Source of the DNA: Lachnospiraceae bacterium
GTDB taxonomy: Bacteria; Bacillota_A; Clostridia; Lachnospirales; Lachnospiraceae
Assembly (NCBI GenBank): GCA_017542725.1
Contig: JAFXWR010000011.1
Location: 1 to 60,751 of the forward strand
Length of the DNA: 60,751 bases
Reading direction: 5' to 3'
Both the position numbers and the translations under genes were made by a program. Below, piece after piece: positions 14,901 to 20,840 of the stretch. The first letter of the stretch is position 1; each line of letters begins with the position of its first letter. Under the pieces are notes generated by a model that saw only the letters and a program-made list of their open reading frames with translations, made no database searches and had not been told where the DNA came from.

Positions 14901-15065
14901 CCACTTAAGATAGCCTTTAAAGAGAGTGAAAAATTATGGCTTAGGAATGGAGATATGTATGGATTTTTCGCAGGGAATTTTAAGGAAGTAGTTGACTTGA
15001 ATATTTCTAGAAAAGGTAAAAAGTATGCTGTGCATCCACTTATGTGGATAAAATATCAAAACTAG
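11994..15065 (+). CDS. Giant lipoprotein with about four DUF6273-like domains
   Basis: A lipobox (LCSC) follows a long positively charged signal peptide. Four DUF6273-like units can be traced, at about residues 80-240 (divergent), 405-590, 610-790 and 845-1020. Each has the pattern of a 'W..V' strand, then 'W..S..R..L...F....F...E', then a 'P...I' end; the last two carry 'WSNSELRQWLSQTFMYKIFS' and 'SWETSSVREKLNTEIYDECFS'. Multiplication of the unit that occurs once in the preceding gene suggests tandem duplication. Role unknown; probably surface exposed. A dispersed repeat lies just after the stop. Confidence 0.75.
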   Translation: MIHKFHKVSNFYKTAKVFLLFLFVFSLCSCKMSPVDRYKKYMEKVDNTKYIDEDIVKEKNGKEYIVDKDGKEQEILENIFDASVGEVAYFGKFGGAKIPFVVVRRSGEVMEIMSIPKFNLMREESSLTQNKMATAESFSLLNTIFLKACFNDDEIKNILPFEYREINLQIEPDKKILKDFDIVYDQNYKDKYDNPTILSKVLLHEQYVNRSYSNNYTNDYGYPNEKNIKQITDSISNMWNVKITNKEKGITYLYDYNDFVYQTGIDVYKYNSRIELRLKNIETEKYNEKANGFKHIATGSDLEEKDYGYYYLRDGNIVKNEIVEKDGTKFYLSNKGKAIELKSFSIQDFNGTEVLMCDDVIIRDKIINKDDIAIEDSRKVNAEKYYVDLNGIVHNLVSNLKDADVSDTVMFGHKNNDQNEPLLWRVVENLGGVYTLILEEKITFDMVEGNPEKREEDAYDGKVSKFDQGKTWDESDRRKYLNEVFYVESFSDSEKEIIVSNPLRAESYIKENNFSGSKGQDTYDKVFVYNENTKEYMKKYVESFEMLKIKKPSVYNDEDLYFNFSLIDSDLTSVRPWVVVNLTGESVPVENSTKNFIDISKGDKETYEIPRIKTKLINGVKLGKYLQYGDKVTNIYWTLYAIDGDIAYYRASQVLDFEKIVESKDKEIKWSNSELRQWLSQTFMYKIFSTDEIAKLEKIKKKYQYIDSSGNIKEEECEDFITLLNYDEVPIYLTTGVHLSNKSFEKIDAIDRKGAAAVTSLFDNRTHKFYSACYKADDVGNSQDGRIEIKTNDTAYVGILPVIAINIDKIIDINRNQKIRKNPDKQEEWMKEEIANSQFLFKEGLYGDVIKMGKYQSKDLEWVVLDRVQDYALVIAKESLFTDSNLGRYGTSSWETSSVREKLNTEIYDECFSDEEKKRIKPVKLYTEYTESEVRSGQEDPSNIYSLDDETIDYLFLPEEKDINIITRPPLKIAFKESEKLWLRNGDMYGFFAGNFKEVVDLNISRKGKKYAVHPLMWIKYQN

Positions 15066-15080
15066 GGTAGGCTCAAATAA

Positions 15081-15104
15081 TGTAGGGGCGAGCATTGCGA
15101 GCCC
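15081..15104 (+). repeat. Dispersed 24-bp repeat, consensus copy
   Basis: TGTAGGGGCGAG-CATTG-CGAGCCC, a near-consensus copy between the DUF6273 gene and the metQ promoter. Confidence 0.9.
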
Positions 15105-15141
15105 GTATTTATATATACTATAACTTGTTGTAAACTAATAT

Positions 15142-15170
15142 TTGACTATTATTTTTATAGATGCTATATT
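15142..15170 (+). promoter_or_regulatory. Promoter of the metQ attenuator transcript
   Basis: TTGACT (15142-15147), 17-bp spacer ending in TGC, and TATATT (15165-15170). Initiation is expected near 15177, about 13 nt before the leader-peptide ATG. Confidence 0.85.
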
Positions 15171-15189
15171 ATATTTATCAGGAGTTCAC

Positions 15190-15264
15190 ATGAAAAATGT
15201 ATTTGTAAAATCTATGATGATGTACATGATGATGAGTAAGTCATTTTTCGTGTGCACAAAATAG
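15190..15264 (+). CDS. Methionine-rich leader peptide of the metQ attenuator (24 codons)
   Basis: A short ORF with its own Shine-Dalgarno (AGGAG, 15180-15184, 5-nt spacing) encodes 24 residues, seven of them Met. Codons 9-11 and 13-15 are two ATG triplets in a row separated by a Tyr codon (MMM-Y-MMM). The stop codon (TAG, 15262-15264) lies just before a terminator hairpin upstream of the methionine-binding lipoprotein gene. The layout is that of a regulatory leader peptide: translation speed over the Met runs would sense charged Met-tRNA. It is too short to be a functional protein of any family I recognise. Base pairing of the leader is described under the antiterminator entry. Confidence 0.85.
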   Translation: MKNVFVKSMMMYMMMSKSFFVCTK

Positions 15265-15304
15265 TTAGTAAATCTTGATTATATAAGTGCTACGGAAAAT
15301 GATT
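15190..15304 (+). promoter_or_regulatory. Protector and antiterminator helices of the metQ attenuator
   Basis: Segment 2 (15239-15257) can pair with segment 3 (15287-15304) through about 18 base pairs with one bulged U (15253) and three G.U pairs, engulfing the whole 5' arm of the terminator (15285-15295). Segment 1 (15190-15199, AUGAAAAAUG) can instead pair with 15242-15251 (CAUUUUUCGU) through 10 pairs, blocking the antiterminator when the leader is not translated. Segment 2 starts right after the Met codons. A ribosome stalled there frees segment 2; a ribosome at the stop codon covers it. Pairings were found by eye. Confidence 0.82.
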
Positions 15305-15322
15305 AGACCGTAGCACTTTTTT
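15285..15322 (+). terminator. Attenuator terminator upstream of metQ
   Basis: AAGTGCTACGG (15285-15295) pairs perfectly with CCGTAGCACTT (15308-15318), 12-nt loop, six T's at 15317-15322. It lies between the leader peptide and metQ. Confidence 0.93.
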
Positions 15323-15405
15323 ATTGTATTTACTAACTTAAAAAAGTGTTGCAAAACACTAGAAAAATCAATATAATTAATACATTGTCTAGGAGGAGTT
15401 TATTT

Positions 15406-16236
15406 ATGAACAAGAAGTTATTAGGTTTAGTTTTATCATTAGCAGTTTTATCATTGGCTGCTTGTGGCAATAAGACTGCACAAGCACCAGCAAATAGTAG
15501 TGAGGCACCAGCTCAAGTAGTAACAGTGGCAGCATCACCTGTCCCACATGCAGAGCTTCTATTACAAGTAATGGATGATATGAAAGAACTCGGTTATGAT
15601 TTAGAAATAAGAGAATTTTCGGACTATGTTCTTCCAAATACAGCTGTAGACGAGGGAGACATCATGGCAAATTTTTTCCAACACAAACCTTATCTTGATG
15701 ATTTTAATGCTGAGAGAGGTACACACATAGTATCAGTTGGAAAAATCCACTATGAGCCATTTGGTGTATATGCAGGATCAAAGAAGACACTTGAACTTGC
15801 AAAAGGCGACAAAGTTGCAGTTCCAAACGATGTAACAAATGAAGCAAGAAGTTTGAATCTTCTTGAGGCTGCAGGTGTTATTAAGCTTAAAGAAGGAGCA
15901 GGACTTACAGCAACCAAACTTGACATTGTTGAGAACCCACTTGAGATTGAAATAGTAGAACTTGAGTCAGCACAGATTCCAAGATCACTTGATTCAGTAG
16001 CAGTTGCATGTATGAATGGAAACTATGCTATGGAAGCAGGATTTAAGGTTAGCGATGCTCTATTCGTAGAGCCACAAAATAGTACAGCTGCTCAAACTTA
16101 TGCAAATATTCTCTGCGTAAAAGAAGGAAATGAAAATGAGAAGTGGGCAAAGGACTTACTCAATTGCTTAAAGAGCCAAAAAGTTAAAGATTATATTGAA
16201 AAAACTTATAACAAATCAGTTATAGCTATTGATTAA
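15406..16236 (+). CDS. metQ: Methionine ABC transporter substrate-binding lipoprotein MetQ (NlpA family)
   Basis: Binds methionine outside the membrane and delivers it to the MetNI importer. The signal peptide ends in LAAC (lipobox); the mature part has the NlpA pattern 'VTVAASPVPHAELL', 'DIMANFFQHKPYLDDF' and 'IHYEPFGVYAGS', ending at normal length (276 aa). I chose the ATG at 15406, preceded by AGGAGGAG; an in-frame start at 15346 would begin inside the leader RNA. metN and metI are not adjacent, so the permease must be elsewhere. Expression is predicted to be controlled by the upstream Met-codon attenuator. A repeat-derived terminator follows. Confidence 0.93.
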   Translation: MNKKLLGLVLSLAVLSLAACGNKTAQAPANSSEAPAQVVTVAASPVPHAELLLQVMDDMKELGYDLEIREFSDYVLPNTAVDEGDIMANFFQHKPYLDDFNAERGTHIVSVGKIHYEPFGVYAGSKKTLELAKGDKVAVPNDVTNEARSLNLLEAAGVIKLKEGAGLTATKLDIVENPLEIEIVELESAQIPRSLDSVAVACMNGNYAMEAGFKVSDALFVEPQNSTAAQTYANILCVKEGNENEKWAKDLLNCLKSQKVKDYIEKTYNKSVIAID

Positions 16237-16245
16237 TCAAAAGAA

Positions 16246-16275
16246 TGCAGGGGCGGCTTTAGCCGCCCTTTTTTC
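16246..16275 (+). terminator. Terminator of metQ built on a GGGCGGC repeat
   Basis: GGGCGGC-TTTA-GCCGCCC followed by six T's. The TGCAGGGGCGG start resembles the dispersed repeat family, suggesting a repeat recruited as terminator. Confidence 0.88.
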
Positions 16276-16390: not shown

Positions 16391-17245
16391 ATGATTAAGA
16401 ATTTTGATTTGACAGGATGGACCTGTTTTAGCGACAGGAGAAATTCAAAAAGCTACATGAGCCCAGATAAAAAATGGATGGTTAAGTTTGGAACTGAGTT
16501 TGCTGAAGCCACATTACCTATACTTGAGCATGAGATGGAAGTGACAAAAAAAGCACTTGAGATAGGTGTTAAGACACCAAAAGTAGATGATATAGTTGAA
16601 CTTCCAGATGGCAAACTTGGACTTGTTTATGAATACATTGAAGGTAAAAAATCTATAGCTCGTGCAGCAGGAGAAGATACTGATAATATAGACTATTACA
16701 TGAAAAGATTTGCACGTATATCAAAAGATTTACATAGTAAAGTTTGCGACCCAAACAAATTTGAATCAGTAGAAGAAAGAGTTAGAGAACAAATCAAAAA
16801 AAGAGACATATTGACAGAGTTACAAAAAGAAAAAGCATATAAGTTGCTTGATAGCATAGAAAAAAAGTATACTTGTATTCATGGAGATTTCCAAACCGGT
16901 AATTTTATAATGGCAGGAGATAATGAGTTTGCTATAGACTTAGGCGCCATTGCTTATGGTAACCCTGACTATGATGTGGCATGTTTCTACTATTTTTGTC
17001 ATTATTTTCCACCTTATGTTACTGATAGAATTTTCCATTGCGACCAAAAATATCTGCCACTTATGTGGAGAAGTTTTATAAAATATTATTATGATACTAC
17101 GGATGAGAAAGTACTCGATGAAATCACTAAGAAAAATGCCAAGTATGCGTTGGTATGTTTCTTTGGGCAACTTAAAAATATAGAGCCAGGTCCAGAACTT
17201 AAAGAAGCTATGGATAAGTACTTTGACAAGGAGTTTAATGATTAA
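16391..17245 (+). CDS. Aminoglycoside-phosphotransferase-like kinase (TIGR02172-type)
   Basis: A small kinase of the APH/choline-kinase fold. The catalytic loop HGDFQTGN (about 160-167) and the metal-binding 'AIDLG' (about 178-182) are intact, and the N-terminal part starts with 'LTGWTCFSDRRNSKSYMS'. Members of this paralogous family have no proven substrate; antibiotic resistance should not be assumed. It has an AGGAGG site, and its stop overlaps the yqeC start by one base, which ties it to the selenium operon. A second copy with the same N-terminal signature (TCFSDR-NSKSY) is at 53061. Confidence 0.8.
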   Translation: MIKNFDLTGWTCFSDRRNSKSYMSPDKKWMVKFGTEFAEATLPILEHEMEVTKKALEIGVKTPKVDDIVELPDGKLGLVYEYIEGKKSIARAAGEDTDNIDYYMKRFARISKDLHSKVCDPNKFESVEERVREQIKKRDILTELQKEKAYKLLDSIEKKYTCIHGDFQTGNFIMAGDNEFAIDLGAIAYGNPDYDVACFYYFCHYFPPYVTDRIFHCDQKYLPLMWRSFIKYYYDTTDEKVLDEITKKNAKYALVCFFGQLKNIEPGPELKEAMDKYFDKEFND

Positions 17246-18639
17246 TGGCTTATGTGATAGCCGTATGCGGTTCAGGTGGTAAGACCACACTTTGTAAAGA
17301 AATCGCCGCACGATATGCAAATGAAAATAAAAAAGTTTGTATAACTACAACCACAAACATGTGGTTTGATAGTGATGTAAGAAATAGTTTTTTTCAGGTG
17401 GAGGAATATGTTGTAGGGGACGAGCCCGGAAAAGTTTATTATGCTGGAAATGTTGACGAAATAAAGAAAAAATTAAAGCCATTAAATGAAGAAGACTATA
17501 AAAAACTTTGCGACATATTTGATTATGTAATTATAGAAGCCGATGGCAGCCGTGCAATGCCAATGAAAATCCCTTATGGCGTAGGGGCGAGCACTGCGAG
17601 CCCAAGTTGTAAGGGCGAGCTATGCGAGCCCATCATACCTAACAATGTAAATGAGATAGTCATAGTAGTTGGCATGGAATCCGTTGGCCGTAAAATCGGC
17701 TATATTTGCCACCGCTTTAATGAGTTTTATGGGAAAGATAAGTTCTTATCAGATAATAAGATAGAACCTGATACCATAGTTACAGAAAAATTAATAGATG
17801 ATTTCGTGAATCATTATTACTACAAGCCACTAAATGAGAAGTTTCCAAATACCAAAATATCTATTTATAAAAACGACTATGCTAAAATTGCTGTAAGAGC
17901 GACCGATAACTCCGTAGGGGCGAGCATTGCGAGCCCGTTCAAACTTTGCATGGCACTTTGTGCATCAGGATTTTCAAAAAGATTTGGAAACGAGAATAAA
18001 CTTTTAGCAAAAATTCCTATTACAAAACTTGTACTGGGTGACAAATACGATGAAAATAAGTTTAGTAAAGATGAAGCCACACAAAAATTTTTAAATAATG
18101 AAATTATGATTTATCAACTAATGATAGAGAAATTACTAGCAACTCAAGATAGTGTGTTGGGTAAATATTCAAAAGAATTAGGTAAAAATCATTTACAAAT
18201 TGATATAGCAGTAGTGACACAGTATGATGAAATCATAAATGATAAAAATTATAGTGACAAAGTTACAATGATTAAAAATGATAAAGCAGAACTTGGATTA
18301 TCATCGTCAATAAAAATTGCTGTTAAAAAATATAAGGACTTTGACGCAATTATGTTTATAAATTCTGATTTACCAAAACTTGATGAAGAAGAGCTCACAA
18401 GGTTTTTGTACTATAGCATTATGAATAATAATAAGATGGCATCGATGTTTACTGATATTCCTAAGAACCCGGCTTATTTCGAAAAAGAGTATTTTAATGA
18501 GATATTAAAGATAGATGGCGACAAGGGACCAAGAGAATTGCTTGATAACAACATAAAAGATCTATATAGATATTACATTGATCCAAATCAGTTATTTGAG
18601 ATTGACACCAAAGAAGATTTAGAAAAACTTAAATCGTAG
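17245..18639 (+). CDS. yqeC: YqeC-MocA fusion: selenium cofactor protein YqeC with NTP-transferase domain
   Basis: Residues 1-220 are YqeC: P-loop CGSGGKTT (8-15), 'VCITTTTNMW', 'DYVIIEADGSRAMPMKIP'. Residues about 233-464 are a MobA/MocA-like nucleotidyltransferase: 'MALCASGFSKRFGNENKLL', 'AELGLSSSIKIAV', 'MFINSDLPKL' (metal-binding Asp) and 'KGPRELL'. The two are usually separate genes of the selenium-dependent molybdenum hydroxylase trait. Dispersed repeats encode residues 113-120 (VGASTASP), 122-129 (CKGELCEP) and 224-231 (VGASIASP); the last lies exactly at the domain junction. The stop codon TAG also comes from a repeat. Predicted role: installing labile Se and modifying the molybdenum cofactor. 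Followed by yqeB. Confidence 0.87.
   Translation: MAYVIAVCGSGGKTTLCKEIAARYANENKKVCITTTTNMWFDSDVRNSFFQVEEYVVGDEPGKVYYAGNVDEIKKKLKPLNEEDYKKLCDIFDYVIIEADGSRAMPMKIPYGVGASTASPSCKGELCEPIIPNNVNEIVIVVGMESVGRKIGYICHRFNEFYGKDKFLSDNKIEPDTIVTEKLIDDFVNHYYYKPLNEKFPNTKISIYKNDYAKIAVRATDNSVGASIASPFKLCMALCASGFSKRFGNENKLLAKIPITKLVLGDKYDENKFSKDEATQKFLNNEIMIYQLMIEKLLATQDSVLGKYSKELGKNHLQIDIAVVTQYDEIINDKNYSDKVTMIKNDKAELGLSSSIKIAVKKYKDFDAIMFINSDLPKLDEEELTRFLYYSIMNNNKMASMFTDIPKNPAYFEKEYFNEILKIDGDKGPRELLDNNIKDLYRYYIDPNQLFEIDTKEDLEKLKS
17412..17428 (+). repeat. Internally deleted repeat copy in yqeC
   Basis: TGTAGGGG-A-CGAGCCCG: both ends of the repeat with the middle missing, read as VGDEPG. Could be chance similarity. 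Confidence 0.45.
17581..17631 (+). repeat. Two tandem dispersed repeats inside yqeC
   Basis: Copies at 17581-17603 and 17608-17631 are in the same orientation but translated in different frames: the first as VGASTASP, the second as CKGELCEP. The combined insertion keeps the yqeC frame. Confidence 0.9.
17914..17936 (+). repeat. Dispersed repeat at the YqeC/MocA domain junction
   Basis: GTAGGGGCGAG-CATTG-CGAGCCC, translated as VGASIASP, sits exactly between the YqeC and nucleotidyltransferase domains. Confidence 0.9.
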
Positions 18640-18660
18640 GGGCGAATGCTTGCGGAGCCC
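18636..18660 (+). repeat. Dispersed repeat supplying the yqeC stop codon
   Basis: GTAGGGGCGAA-TGCTTG-CGGAGCCC; its TAG is the stop codon of yqeC-mocA, and the repeat fills the gap to yqeB. Confidence 0.8.
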
Positions 18661-18673
18661 ATAGGAGAAATTT

Positions 18674-19507
18674 ATGGATTTTAGAAATTTAAAAGTACTA
18701 GTTCGTGGCGCTGGAGACCTTGCATCTGGCATAATATGGAACCTTGCCTATGCTGGGTTTAAAGTTGTGTGTACAGATGTAGAAAATCCATCTTGCATAA
18801 GGACTGAAGTTTCATTTTCAACTGCAATTTATGAAGGGGTTAAAACTCTTGGTGGAGTATCCTGTGTATATGTAAAAGATGAGAGTGATATAGAGAAAGT
18901 TTGGAATGATGGAAATGTTGCACTTCTCATAGACCCAGAGGCGAAAATTCTTGATAAAATGAAATTTGATGTTGTTGTAGATGCGATTCTTGCAAAGAGG
19001 AATCTTGGTACAAAAATAGATATGGCTGATATCGTTATTGGTGTTGGACCTGGGTTTACAGTAAATAAAGACTGTAACTTTGCAATTGAAACTATGAGAG
19101 GTCATACGCTTTCAAAAATTTATGAGAGCGGAAGCCCAATCCCTGATACAGGCACACCAGGTCTTATCGCAGCACACGGAGCAGATAGAGTTATGCATTC
19201 ACCATGTGAAGGAGTATTTCACAATATGCATAAGATTGGTGATGTAGTGAGACAGGATGATGTGTTATCAAGAGTTGAAGAATATGAAAATGGAAAGCCA
19301 AATGGAAAATTTATAATGCTCACAGCAAGTATCAATGGATTACTTCGCGGCATACTTAGAGATGGATATTATGCAAAGAAAGGACTTAAGGCAGCTGATA
19401 TAGATCCAAGACTTACAGAGCACGATAACTGCTTTACAATATCTGACAAAGCGAGATCAATTGGAGCAGCAGTTGTAACGACAATATTACATGCATACAA
19501 CAAATAG
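18674..19507 (+). CDS. yqeB: Selenium-dependent molybdenum hydroxylase accessory protein YqeB
   Basis: A 277-aa member of the EF2563/YqeB family, which co-occurs with selenium-dependent molybdenum hydroxylases. Recognised by 'VLVRGAGDLASGIIWNLAYAGF', 'DVENPSCIRTEVSFSTAIYEG', 'ILAKRNLGT', 'IGVGPGFTVNKDCNFAIETMRGH' and 'DTGTPGLIAAHGADRVMHSP'. An N-terminal Rossmann-like GAGDLASG motif suggests nucleotide binding. The reaction is unknown; maturation of the Se-containing cofactor is the accepted inference from phylogenetic profiles. Flanked on both sides by dispersed repeats, between yqeC and xdhC. Confidence 0.92.
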   Translation: MDFRNLKVLVRGAGDLASGIIWNLAYAGFKVVCTDVENPSCIRTEVSFSTAIYEGVKTLGGVSCVYVKDESDIEKVWNDGNVALLIDPEAKILDKMKFDVVVDAILAKRNLGTKIDMADIVIGVGPGFTVNKDCNFAIETMRGHTLSKIYESGSPIPDTGTPGLIAAHGADRVMHSPCEGVFHNMHKIGDVVRQDDVLSRVEEYENGKPNGKFIMLTASINGLLRGILRDGYYAKKGLKAADIDPRLTEHDNCFTISDKARSIGAAVVTTILHAYNK

Positions 19508-19531
19508 TGTAGGGGCGAACTTTAGGAGCCC
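19508..19531 (+). repeat. Dispersed repeat between yqeB and xdhC
   Basis: TGTAGGGGCGAA-CTTTAGGAGCCC starts directly after the yqeB stop and ends just before the GAAGGAG ribosome site of xdhC. Confidence 0.8.
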
Positions 19532-19543
19532 GAAGGAGACGAA

Positions 19544-20440
19544 ATGTTTGAGGATATAATAGAAAGAGCATTTGAATATTTAGAAGTTAACGAAGATTTG
19601 GAATTAGTTGAGATAGTAGAGTCATCAGCTGTTGGTACTCCAAGAAAGGCTGGAGCATTTATGTTTGTGGACGTAAATGCAGAGAGTTTTGGGACAGTAG
19701 GTGGTGGCAATGTAGAATATCAATCGACATTATATGCAAAAGAACTTCTTACAAAAAAACAAAGTGGTGAAAAAAAATATGAGTTAAGTCAAGCTGCAGC
19801 AGAAAATATAGGCATGGTTTGCGGCGGCGACAATCTTATGAAATTCACATACCTTACTAATGATGAAAAATCTAAAGCGATATTAAATGAATTAAAAGAA
19901 AAAAATAAAAGTAAAAATACAGTATATATTTTTGGCGGTGGACATGTAAGTATAGAACTTGCGAAAACTCTTAAGTATGTAGGCTTTGAATACGTGGTTT
20001 GGGATGATAGAGAAAATTTTGCAAATGTAGAAAGATTTCCAGAAGCCAAAGAAGTAATCTGTGCACCATTTGAAAATATTTTAGAAAGAATTAAAATTAC
20101 AAAAAATGATATGGTTGTAGTGATGACAAGAGGACACGTATACGATTACATGGCAGAGAAACAAGTGCTTAAATCTGAAGCTGCATATATAGGTGTTATA
20201 GGAAGCAGTAGCAAAAATAAAGTTATAAGAGAGAAACTCTTAACAGATGGGTATTCTGAAGAAGAAATAAATAGAGTTTGTGCACCAATTGGTATACCGA
20301 TTGCAGCTGATACTCCTGAAGAAATTGCTATATCAATTGCTGCTGAGATAATTATGTTTAGATCAAAGCTTGAAGGTAGAAGAAAAATAATGGGAGACAA
20401 TCCGTTACTAACTATATATGAGGAAAAGTTGGGCTCGTAG
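19544..20440 (+). CDS. xdhC: XdhC-family molybdenum hydroxylase maturation protein
   Basis: XdhC-type chaperone that binds molybdenum cofactor, helps sulfuration and insertion into xanthine-dehydrogenase-like enzymes. Evidence: N-terminal 'VEIVESSAVGTPRKAGAFMFV', 'GTVGGGNVEYQ' and 'NIGMVCGGDNLMKF' (cofactor-domain Cys), then a Rossmann domain with 'VYIFGGGHVSIELAKTL' and a C-terminal 'YIGVIGSSSK' and 'APIGIPIAADTPEEIAISIAAEI'. 298 aa is normal. The stop codon lies within an inverted dispersed repeat. No hydroxylase structural gene is in the window. Confidence 0.92.
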   Translation: MFEDIIERAFEYLEVNEDLELVEIVESSAVGTPRKAGAFMFVDVNAESFGTVGGGNVEYQSTLYAKELLTKKQSGEKKYELSQAAAENIGMVCGGDNLMKFTYLTNDEKSKAILNELKEKNKSKNTVYIFGGGHVSIELAKTLKYVGFEYVVWDDRENFANVERFPEAKEVICAPFENILERIKITKNDMVVVMTRGHVYDYMAEKQVLKSEAAYIGVIGSSSKNKVIREKLLTDGYSEEEINRVCAPIGIPIAADTPEEIAISIAAEIIMFRSKLEGRRKIMGDNPLLTIYEEKLGS

Positions 20441-20454
20441 AACTCGTTCGTGCA
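20431..20454 (-). repeat. Inverted dispersed repeat spanning the xdhC stop codon
   Basis: GGGCTCGTAG-AACTCGTTCGTGCA, an inverted copy; its TAG (20438-20440) terminates xdhC. Confidence 0.75.
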
Positions 20455-20474
20455 AGTTACAATATGGAGTAGCA

Positions 20475-20840
20475 ATGAATATAGAGAAAAATGTTTATAA
20501 AAAAATAAAACCCTTAGTTAGAGTTTCGTTTGTTGGAAAAGAAAAGTTTTTCGGCAAAGGAATTGCTGAACTTTTACAGTTGGTTGATAAATACGGCACA
20601 ATTCAAAAAGCATGCAAGAGCATGGACATGTCATATTCTAAGGCATGGAAAATTATCAATAGATTAGAAAAAGAACTTGGATTTAAAGTGCTTGAGACAA
20701 AGGCAGGTGGAAAAAAGGGCGGAGAGTCATATCTTACTGAAGATGCAAAAGATTTGTTGAAACGATTTAGTAAAATGATAAAAGAAGTTGAAGATTATTC
20801 TGGAAAGTCATATAAGAAGTATTTTTTGAAAAAATGTTAA
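20475..20840 (+). CDS. ModE-type winged-helix regulator (DNA-binding domain only)
   Basis: A 121-aa protein matching the N-terminal LysR-like HTH of ModE: 'FFGKGIAELLQLVDKYGTIQKACKSMDMSYSKAWKIINRLEKELGFKVLE' and 'GGKKGGESYLTEDAKDLL'. The molybdate-binding Mop/TOBE domains of full ModE are absent; a stand-alone two-Mop protein is encoded at 41565. I prefer the ATG at 20475 (GGAG five bases upstream) to the in-frame ATG at 20418, which would read through the repeat. Likely regulates Mo or Se genes; overlaps the next gene by 7 bp. Confidence 0.85.
   Translation: MNIEKNVYKKIKPLVRVSFVGKEKFFGKGIAELLQLVDKYGTIQKACKSMDMSYSKAWKIINRLEKELGFKVLETKAGGKKGGESYLTEDAKDLLKRFSKMIKEVEDYSGKSYKKYFLKKC

Follow-up and report, generated by a model that had tools for sequence, protein, structure and literature searches.

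A predicted methionine-codon leader-peptide attenuator before metQ and its cysteine-codon homologues in one genus of Lachnospiraceae

Positions 15142-15322 of the DNA analyzed here, a 60,751-nucleotide stretch from a Lachnospiraceae bacterium that we call the window, very probably form a ribosome-mediated transcription attenuator of the trp/his type. The attenuator is predicted to allow metQ to be read when charged methionyl-tRNA is scarce, and the leader is homologous to leaders with Met or Cys codon runs elsewhere in the same genus. The leader ORF, its codon runs, three competing helices, the homologues and their neighbouring genes were observed directly, and from these we infer that the signal is the charging of elongator tRNA-Met. 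We also think it likely that copies of one ancestral attenuator, all within one genus of Lachnospiraceae from the ruminant gut, came to sense either Cys or Met through exchange of the sensor run. Modular, codon-addressed switches of this kind would then control sulfur amino-acid genes as one regulon, made up of cysK, metY, metQ and a probable cystine importer.

Architecture of the metQ leader

All features of the leader lie on the forward strand. A promoter-like sequence, P1 (TTGACT-17-TATATT, 15142..15170), assigned by pattern with 10 of 12 consensus matches, is followed by the Shine-Dalgarno sequence AGGAG (15180..15184) and by a leader ORF of 24 codons plus a stop, MKNVFVKSMMMYMMMSKSFFVCTK (15190..15264, stop codon 15262-15264). 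The ORF carries two runs of three Met codons, codons 9-11 (15214..15222) and 13-15 (15226..15234). Segment 1 (15190..15199) is the 5´ strand of a protector helix whose partner is 15242-15251 (10 pairs, one of them G-U). Segment 2 (15239..15257) includes this protector 3´ strand and is the 5´ strand of the antiterminator, both segments being assigned from folding and pair counts. Segment 3 (15285..15304) combines the 5´ arm of the terminator (15285-15295) with the 3´ strand of the antiterminator (15287-15304), which forms 18 pairs with 15239-15257 and leaves one bulged U. The 3´ arm of the terminator is segment 4 (15308..15318); the stem is 11 bp with a loop of 12 bases, and the U-tract of the intrinsic terminator is at 15317..15322.

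A sequence-only reading of this region had proposed P1, the AGGAG, the 24-codon ORF and its Met runs, together with an 11-bp terminator, an antiterminator of about 18 pairs and a 10-pair protector. When the sequence was re-read, all of these were found at the coordinates claimed and confirmed base for base. An automated terminator pattern was silent on the leader region; its loop limit is 8 bases, against the 12 here. An inverted repeat, GTTAGTAAAT/ATTTACTAAC, surrounds the terminator (15264-15273 with 15328-15337). The repeat is imperfect in two metQ loci of relatives (L001 and L002), and the model works without it.

The gene behind the leader (15406..16236) encodes a metQ-like NlpA lipoprotein, the substrate-binding protein of a methionine ABC transporter. 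In a profile search, the product scored above the cut-off for PF03180 and below the curated cut-offs of the MetQ models. In the window, metQ is apart from metN, and other ABC stretches there are only 30-34% identical. A strong hairpin, GGGCGGC-TTTA-GCCGCCC, followed by T's, sits just past the metQ stop (16251-16274), and metQ therefore looks monocistronic. Further downstream (16391-20840) are genes for a TIGR02172-like kinase, a YqeC/MocA-like fusion, YqeB, an XdhC-type protein and a ModE-like regulator, which by sequence are a predicted selenium/molybdenum cofactor maturation cluster. The metQ-kinase neighbourhood recurs in one other locus (L066).

Predicted folding with and without a ribosome

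In the proposed mechanism, a ribosome supplied with ample Met-tRNA would reach the stop codon and cover segment 2, segments 3 and 4 would pair, and transcription would end at the U-tract. When Met-tRNA is scarce, a ribosome stalled on the Met runs would cover segment 1, segment 2 would pair with segment 3, and no terminator would form. Without translation, segments 1 and 2 would pair with each other and termination would be restored.

Folds of the 17 leaders described below were computed with an assumed ribosome footprint of 15 nt from the first base of the A-site codon. With the ribosome at the leader stop, the terminator formed in 17 of 17 folds. The terminator also formed in all 17 with no ribosome, segment 2 then pairing upstream through 10-14 pairs in 16 leaders and through 4 in the cysK leader of genome G003. 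With the first sensor codon occupied by the ribosome and the terminator 3´ arm still unmade, the antiterminator formed in every leader (11-14 segment-2 pairs). Minimum-energy folding of full-length leaders around a stalled ribosome gave the antiterminator in 6 of 17 for a stall at the first codon and in 11 of 17 for a stall at the third. The terminator won at both stall positions in five leaders (G011 metQ, G006 metQ, G011 metY, G010 cysK and G006 cysK), and these, as modelled, would need kinetic folding or trapping. Kinetic trapping is usual for attenuators. A ribosome positioned on the last Met codon partly masked segment 2, and the terminator then won in five of the six metQ leaders. Given this masking, the earlier Met codons should matter most, and in the model the end of the second Met run may fail as a stall site.

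The stability of these structures exceeds that of shuffled sequences. The fold of the untranslated window leader has an energy of -41.8 kcal/mol, compared with -24.4 +/- 3 for shuffles (z -5.8; 0 of 200 as good). The duplex between the leader and the terminator 5´ arm plus loop reaches -22.6, compared with -8.2 +/- 2.1 (0 of 300 as good). The same duplex test applied across the 17 leaders gave 0 of 300 for 15 leaders, 1 for another and 2 for the last.

Conservation of the competing helices

Pair counts were made on an alignment (A6) of 13 of the 17 leaders, which left out G001 metQ, G008, G009 ABC and G011 ABC. For the antiterminator, 96.0% of 224 cells are paired and the covariation score is 0.175, compared with 0.093 +/- 0.015 for shuffles (0 of 500 as high), figures to be read with lenient controls in mind, as the structure was taken from the window and the rows are closely related, such that cells are not independent. 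Four antiterminator pairs are changed on both sides, a number reached by 16 of 500 shuffles, and there are 11 such cells, reached by none of 500; the number of further pair types is not unusual, with 126 of 500 shuffles reaching the same. When the antiterminator was slid out of register, at most 50.3% of cells were paired, no more than three pairs were changed on both sides and the score peaked at 0.057.

In the terminator, pairing holds for 98.6% of 141 cells, and two pairs are changed on both sides (26 of 500 shuffles). Versions slid by +2 and +3 come close (0.103 and 0.100) to its covariation score of 0.117 (0 of 500), and the pairing percentage is thus the better evidence for this helix. 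One column beside the core changes from G-C to A-U in both the terminator and the antiterminator. For the protector, 96.7% of 123 cells are paired and the changes are one-sided and of the G-U type only; among the 13 leaders there were no double changes, and covariation was no better than in shuffles.

Homologous leaders with Met or Cys runs

A covariance model, R1, was built from five metQ leaders with the terminator pairs only; a sixth, in locus L006, was left out of the model since MAFFT misplaces its segment 2. Searched against 12 genomes of the genus with 150 candidates scored per genome, R1 gave 33 rows at E values up to 1, among them 16 at 2e-5 or lower. These 16 comprise four training members, the G002 metQ leader of L006 that had not been used to build the model, and 11 leaders before other genes. 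The 17 weak rows (E 0.011-0.96) were not counted; one was inspected, and two are antisense to known members. A second model, R2, built from 13 leaders with protector and terminator pairs, recovered the identical 16 leaders, all with E values of at most 2.4e-11; no other row from the genus was below 0.09. Both models include the sensor columns and may favour Met or Cys leaders. In the window, R2 gave the metQ leader an E value of 4.8e-18; the two other rows were weak, one at 0.08 that is antisense to the terminator and one at 0.96. The total is 17 leaders, the one in the window and 16 in 10 of the 12 genus genomes; neither model found a leader in G007, which is 55% complete, or in G012.

Clustered Met or Cys codons are present in all 17. 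Seven leaders have Met runs, six before metQ (including the window) and one before metY in G011 (AAMMMGMCY). The other ten have Cys runs, illustrated by NSCCVCCMKA and NTCCCTCQRA. Six of these precede cysK (G010, G011, G003, G005, G006 and G009) and four precede an amino-acid ABC operon (G004, G009, G011 and G008; the G008 contig breaks off after MDYEFIIKFLP, a start shared with the others). The order within the Cys cluster varies (CCVCC, CCRCC, CCCTC, CFVCC) and both Cys codons are used, which fits conservation of the amino acid and not of the precise bases.

Wherever the downstream gene is clear, in 13 leaders (6 metQ, 1 metY, 6 cysK), the sensor codon matches its pathway without exception. 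In profile annotation, which covered one example of most genes, the G011 cysK scored above the TIGR01139 cut-off and metY above that of TIGR01326. For G010, a truncated piece of the gene had cysK as its best model, below the cut-off, and the remaining four cysK genes were recognized from sequence. In the ABC operon, annotated in G011 and through the first permease of G009, no protein reached the cut-off of any model. The best model for the ATPase was L-cystine TcyN at 269 bits, nearly tied with glutamine GlnQ at 265, and the permeases matched ectoine EhuD/EhuC best, a cystine permease model ranking second or third. Judged from these profiles, the operon behind the Cys leaders is possibly a cystine importer.

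With the sensor codons set aside, identity of the window leader is 78.4% to the G010 cysK leader, 77.6% to G011 metQ, 74.8% to G006 metQ and 69.9% to G002 metQ. As identity to a cysK leader is as high as to two of the metQ leaders, we take the leaders to be homologous with an exchanged sensor run. Because homologous Cys-run leaders precede cysK, codon identity can be argued to be the sensor. The core of segment 2, CGTGTGCA, encodes VC in 4 leaders and SCA in 13; translation in two frames indicates that the core is kept as RNA rather than as peptide. Duplication followed by exchange of the sensor codons would have retargeted one attenuator between Cys and Met, in either direction. A tree of the leaders made without sensor codons has weakly supported deep branches and does not fix the direction or the number of Cys-Met exchanges.

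In three leaders (G011 metQ, G006 metQ and G011 metY, at loci L004, L005 and L078), a likely -10 box, located by eye, ends 6-7 nt 5´ of the leader ATG, and no Shine-Dalgarno sequence was seen by eye at the leader start. The closeness of the box and the missing Shine-Dalgarno sequence suggest that these leader peptides may be translated from leaderless transcripts.

metQ loci and the range of the leader

A MetQ match was found in 41 of 60 relatives, G001 being the nearest to the window, and the regions upstream of metQ were scanned in 30 loci (L001-L030). Met-run leaders precede metQ in five of the 30, all in one genus (G001, G005, G011, G006 and G002). The sequence-only reading had named, as evidence against it, relatives that keep the hairpin and lose the Met runs or the alternative pairing. 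In the five related leaders, runs and pairing are kept together, the Met runs being retained in all five while the peptides diverge. Further Met-rich ORFs in eleven of the scanned loci (L001, L003, L007, L008, L011, L013, L014, L016, L017, L020 and L027) were judged by eye to belong to neighbouring genes or to be read out of frame within them, and were discarded. A broader survey covered the best 80 metQ loci of 526 relatives drawn from 84,980 species genomes. A Met-rich ORF, defined as 8-45 codons with at least 4 Met in 7, was found within about 500 nt upstream of the metQ match in 5 of these 80 loci, all in this genus, and was absent upstream in the other 75, including two loci of the genus (L085 and L089).

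Within the genus, metQ directly follows metI in G003, G009 and G004. In six genomes (G001, G002, G005, G006, G010 and G011) metQ is away from metN, in five of these on another contig and in G002 24 kb off, and five of the six have the leader. The sixth, G010, has a metQ that is 80% identical and carries no leader. The covariance models found no Met leader in G003, G004, G009, G008 and G012, where metQ adjoins metN or metI. A Met leader before metN was sought in 12 loci, and none was found in the 11 that gave a result (all except L049 of G003); metN lies behind a prfC-like coding sequence in nine and behind metQ in two. Three Met-rich ORFs near metN (two in L038, one in L046) are out of frame inside upstream genes. 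The prfC-like gene (peptide chain release factor 3) upstream of metN in 9 of the 12 loci (L039, L041-L048) was recognized by eye, and no such attenuator accompanies it.

Searches across the family used stricter filters. R1 was run on 250 genomes, one per genus, with 13 candidates scored per genome, and only G001 matched. R2 on 397 genomes, with 8 candidates per genome, matched five, of which two are in the genus and three are not leaders of this kind. The leader was thus seen in one genus only in the 397-genome search, and more distant relatives may exist beyond the candidates scored. One of the three, L174 in another genus, is a free-standing terminator with a near-identical stem, ATGCTACGG...CCGTAGCAT, and no leader ORF beside it.

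Alternative explanations

A second promoter-like sequence, P2 (TTGCAA-17-TATAAT, 15349..15377), lies between the terminator and metQ and had escaped the sequence-only reading; it is a possible attenuator-independent start, assigned by pattern. If metQ were read from P2 alone, the hairpin could be a constitutive terminator of an upstream transcript, or a decoy. P2 scores equal to P1, at 10 of 12, and G010 has metQ without the leader, as this explanation would allow. Promoter-like sites of P1 and P2 quality also arise by chance, and the pattern is weak evidence for either, with 4 sites found in the region against a mean of 2.8 expected per shuffle. A terminator of this sort would not account for the conservation of the antiterminator and of the codon runs and their order, nor for the same cassette before other sulfur amino-acid genes. 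Inspection by eye showed P2-like sites in L001, L002, L004 and L005 and none in L006, a metQ locus where the leader is present, and we consider this explanation very unlikely. For the attenuator we favour, P2, if real, would give metQ a floor of expression independent of attenuation, and the attenuator may govern only part of metQ transcription.

Two other readings concern what the leader senses. The alternative folds require only a stalled ribosome, and the leader might respond to any slowdown of translation, such as that caused by an antibiotic, with the Met and Cys codons incidental; leader-peptide attenuators of such a kind have been reported for resistance genes of Firmicutes. However, the codon runs track the pathway in all 13 leaders with a clear gene, and there is no resistance gene among the downstream genes read, which makes general sensing highly improbable. 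We judge it extremely unlikely that the leader is a metabolite- or tRNA-binding RNA (a SAM riboswitch, a T-box or an undescribed riboswitch) with a fortuitous ORF. The genus does contain such RNAs. SAM-I matches occur in 6 of the 12 genus genomes, 3 of them above the cut-off, and four of the matches, by reading of the proteins by eye, precede three metK-like genes and one threonine-synthase-like gene. Eight T-box-like matches, none above the cut-off, occur in 6 of the 12 (L184-L191). Seven of the eight precede trpE-like or ABC substrate-binding genes, as read from sequence, and the eighth (G007) is at a contig end; a Met or Cys gene lies behind none of the seven readable matches. The ABC substrate-binding gene behind these matches possibly belongs to a tryptophan transporter. 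In the window, by contrast, a covariance-model search gave no match to Rfam families at gathering scores, and no row for SAM riboswitches or T-boxes (RF00162, RF00230) over 15050-15450 even at E values up to 10, and a SAM-I or T-box identity of the leader, which the sequence-only reading had listed among the findings that would count against its proposal, was accordingly rejected. Moreover, all 17 leaders retain an open ORF and its sensor codons, although the other codons vary. The reading as a four-segment Met-codon attenuator is thus supported by the comparative tests set for it.

Relation to known systems and implications

SAM riboswitches and T-boxes are the textbook route for control of Met genes in Bacillota. 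In T-boxes (RF00230), amino-acid specificity is set by codon identity and can be changed by codon exchange, and the tRNA binds the RNA directly with no ribosome. The leaders described here share with T-boxes a specificity addressed by codon, and differ in the direct tRNA binding of the T-box and in having no T-box match. Ribosome-mediated attenuators of the trp, his and ilv operons of Proteobacteria combine a codon-run leader with helices that share segments. Our leaders are similar in having an ORF with codons of the regulated amino acid and a protector, an antiterminator and a terminator with shared segments. The likeness is one of logic; in contrast to the proteobacterial examples, the sensor here is Met or Cys, and leaders of different specificity are mutually homologous.

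The excerpts of published work cited here document several related systems, beginning with the mechanism of his attenuation in E. coli (PMC9413887). His leader-peptide attenuators have been reported for Firmicutes, in bacilli, Eubacteriales and Erysipelotrichales and in a group with C. difficile (PMC2965389, PMC9413887). They likewise represent leader-peptide attenuation in Gram-positives, but contain His codons and precede his, hisS or hisZ genes, and similar His leaders are described on paralogous genes with the amino acid unchanged (PMC2965389). The ilv-leu leader of S. aureus also combines an amino-acid-codon leader peptide, a terminator and an alternative fold in a member of the Firmicutes, but responds to Ile/Leu, and its antiterminator is described as sparing the terminator stem and pairing with the U tail, whereas segment 3 is shared here (PMC5794164). 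In Streptomyces lividans, a putative Met leader, metL, precedes metNIQ, similarly placing a Met-containing leader before a methionine importer; this actinobacterial leader has 29 residues with 2 separate internal Met codons, and a typical Rho-independent terminator is reported to be missing (PMC8079986). Cys-codon leaders before Cys-related genes are represented by the uORFC-8-2 Cys attenuator of cysS in Rhodobacterales (PMC8632094) and by leader peptides of cys operons in Actinobacteria (PMC1262725). These belong to other phyla and precede other genes, the excerpts describe no Met counterpart (PMC8632094, PMC1262725), and the actinobacterial leaders are reported to have no obvious terminator (PMC1262725).

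The sequence-only reading had been aware of no described Met-codon leader-peptide attenuator for metQ in this phylum. None with Met codons was found for Firmicutes in the open-access full-text literature, as far as its texts were covered, which is weak evidence of absence; leader-peptide attenuators for His and Ile/Leu had already been reported there. Homologous attenuators with different sensor amino acids (Cys and Met) were likewise not found in that literature, again weak evidence of absence. The logic of attenuation is thus already known, Firmicutes included, and what is new, within the open-access literature searched, is the Met version there and the homologues retargeted between Cys and Met.

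The amino-acid attenuator of each operon is usually regarded as an invention of its own. If our interpretation is true, the leaders of this genus would be a leader-peptide counterpart of the specifier-codon swaps of T-boxes, and methionine would be added to the amino acids sensed through leader peptides in Bacillota. Homologous leaders that differ in their sensor codons, with the pathway changing in step, amount to a natural codon-swap experiment. Such leaders argue strongly for codon identity as the sensor, and suggest that an attenuator can be re-addressed by a few mutations.
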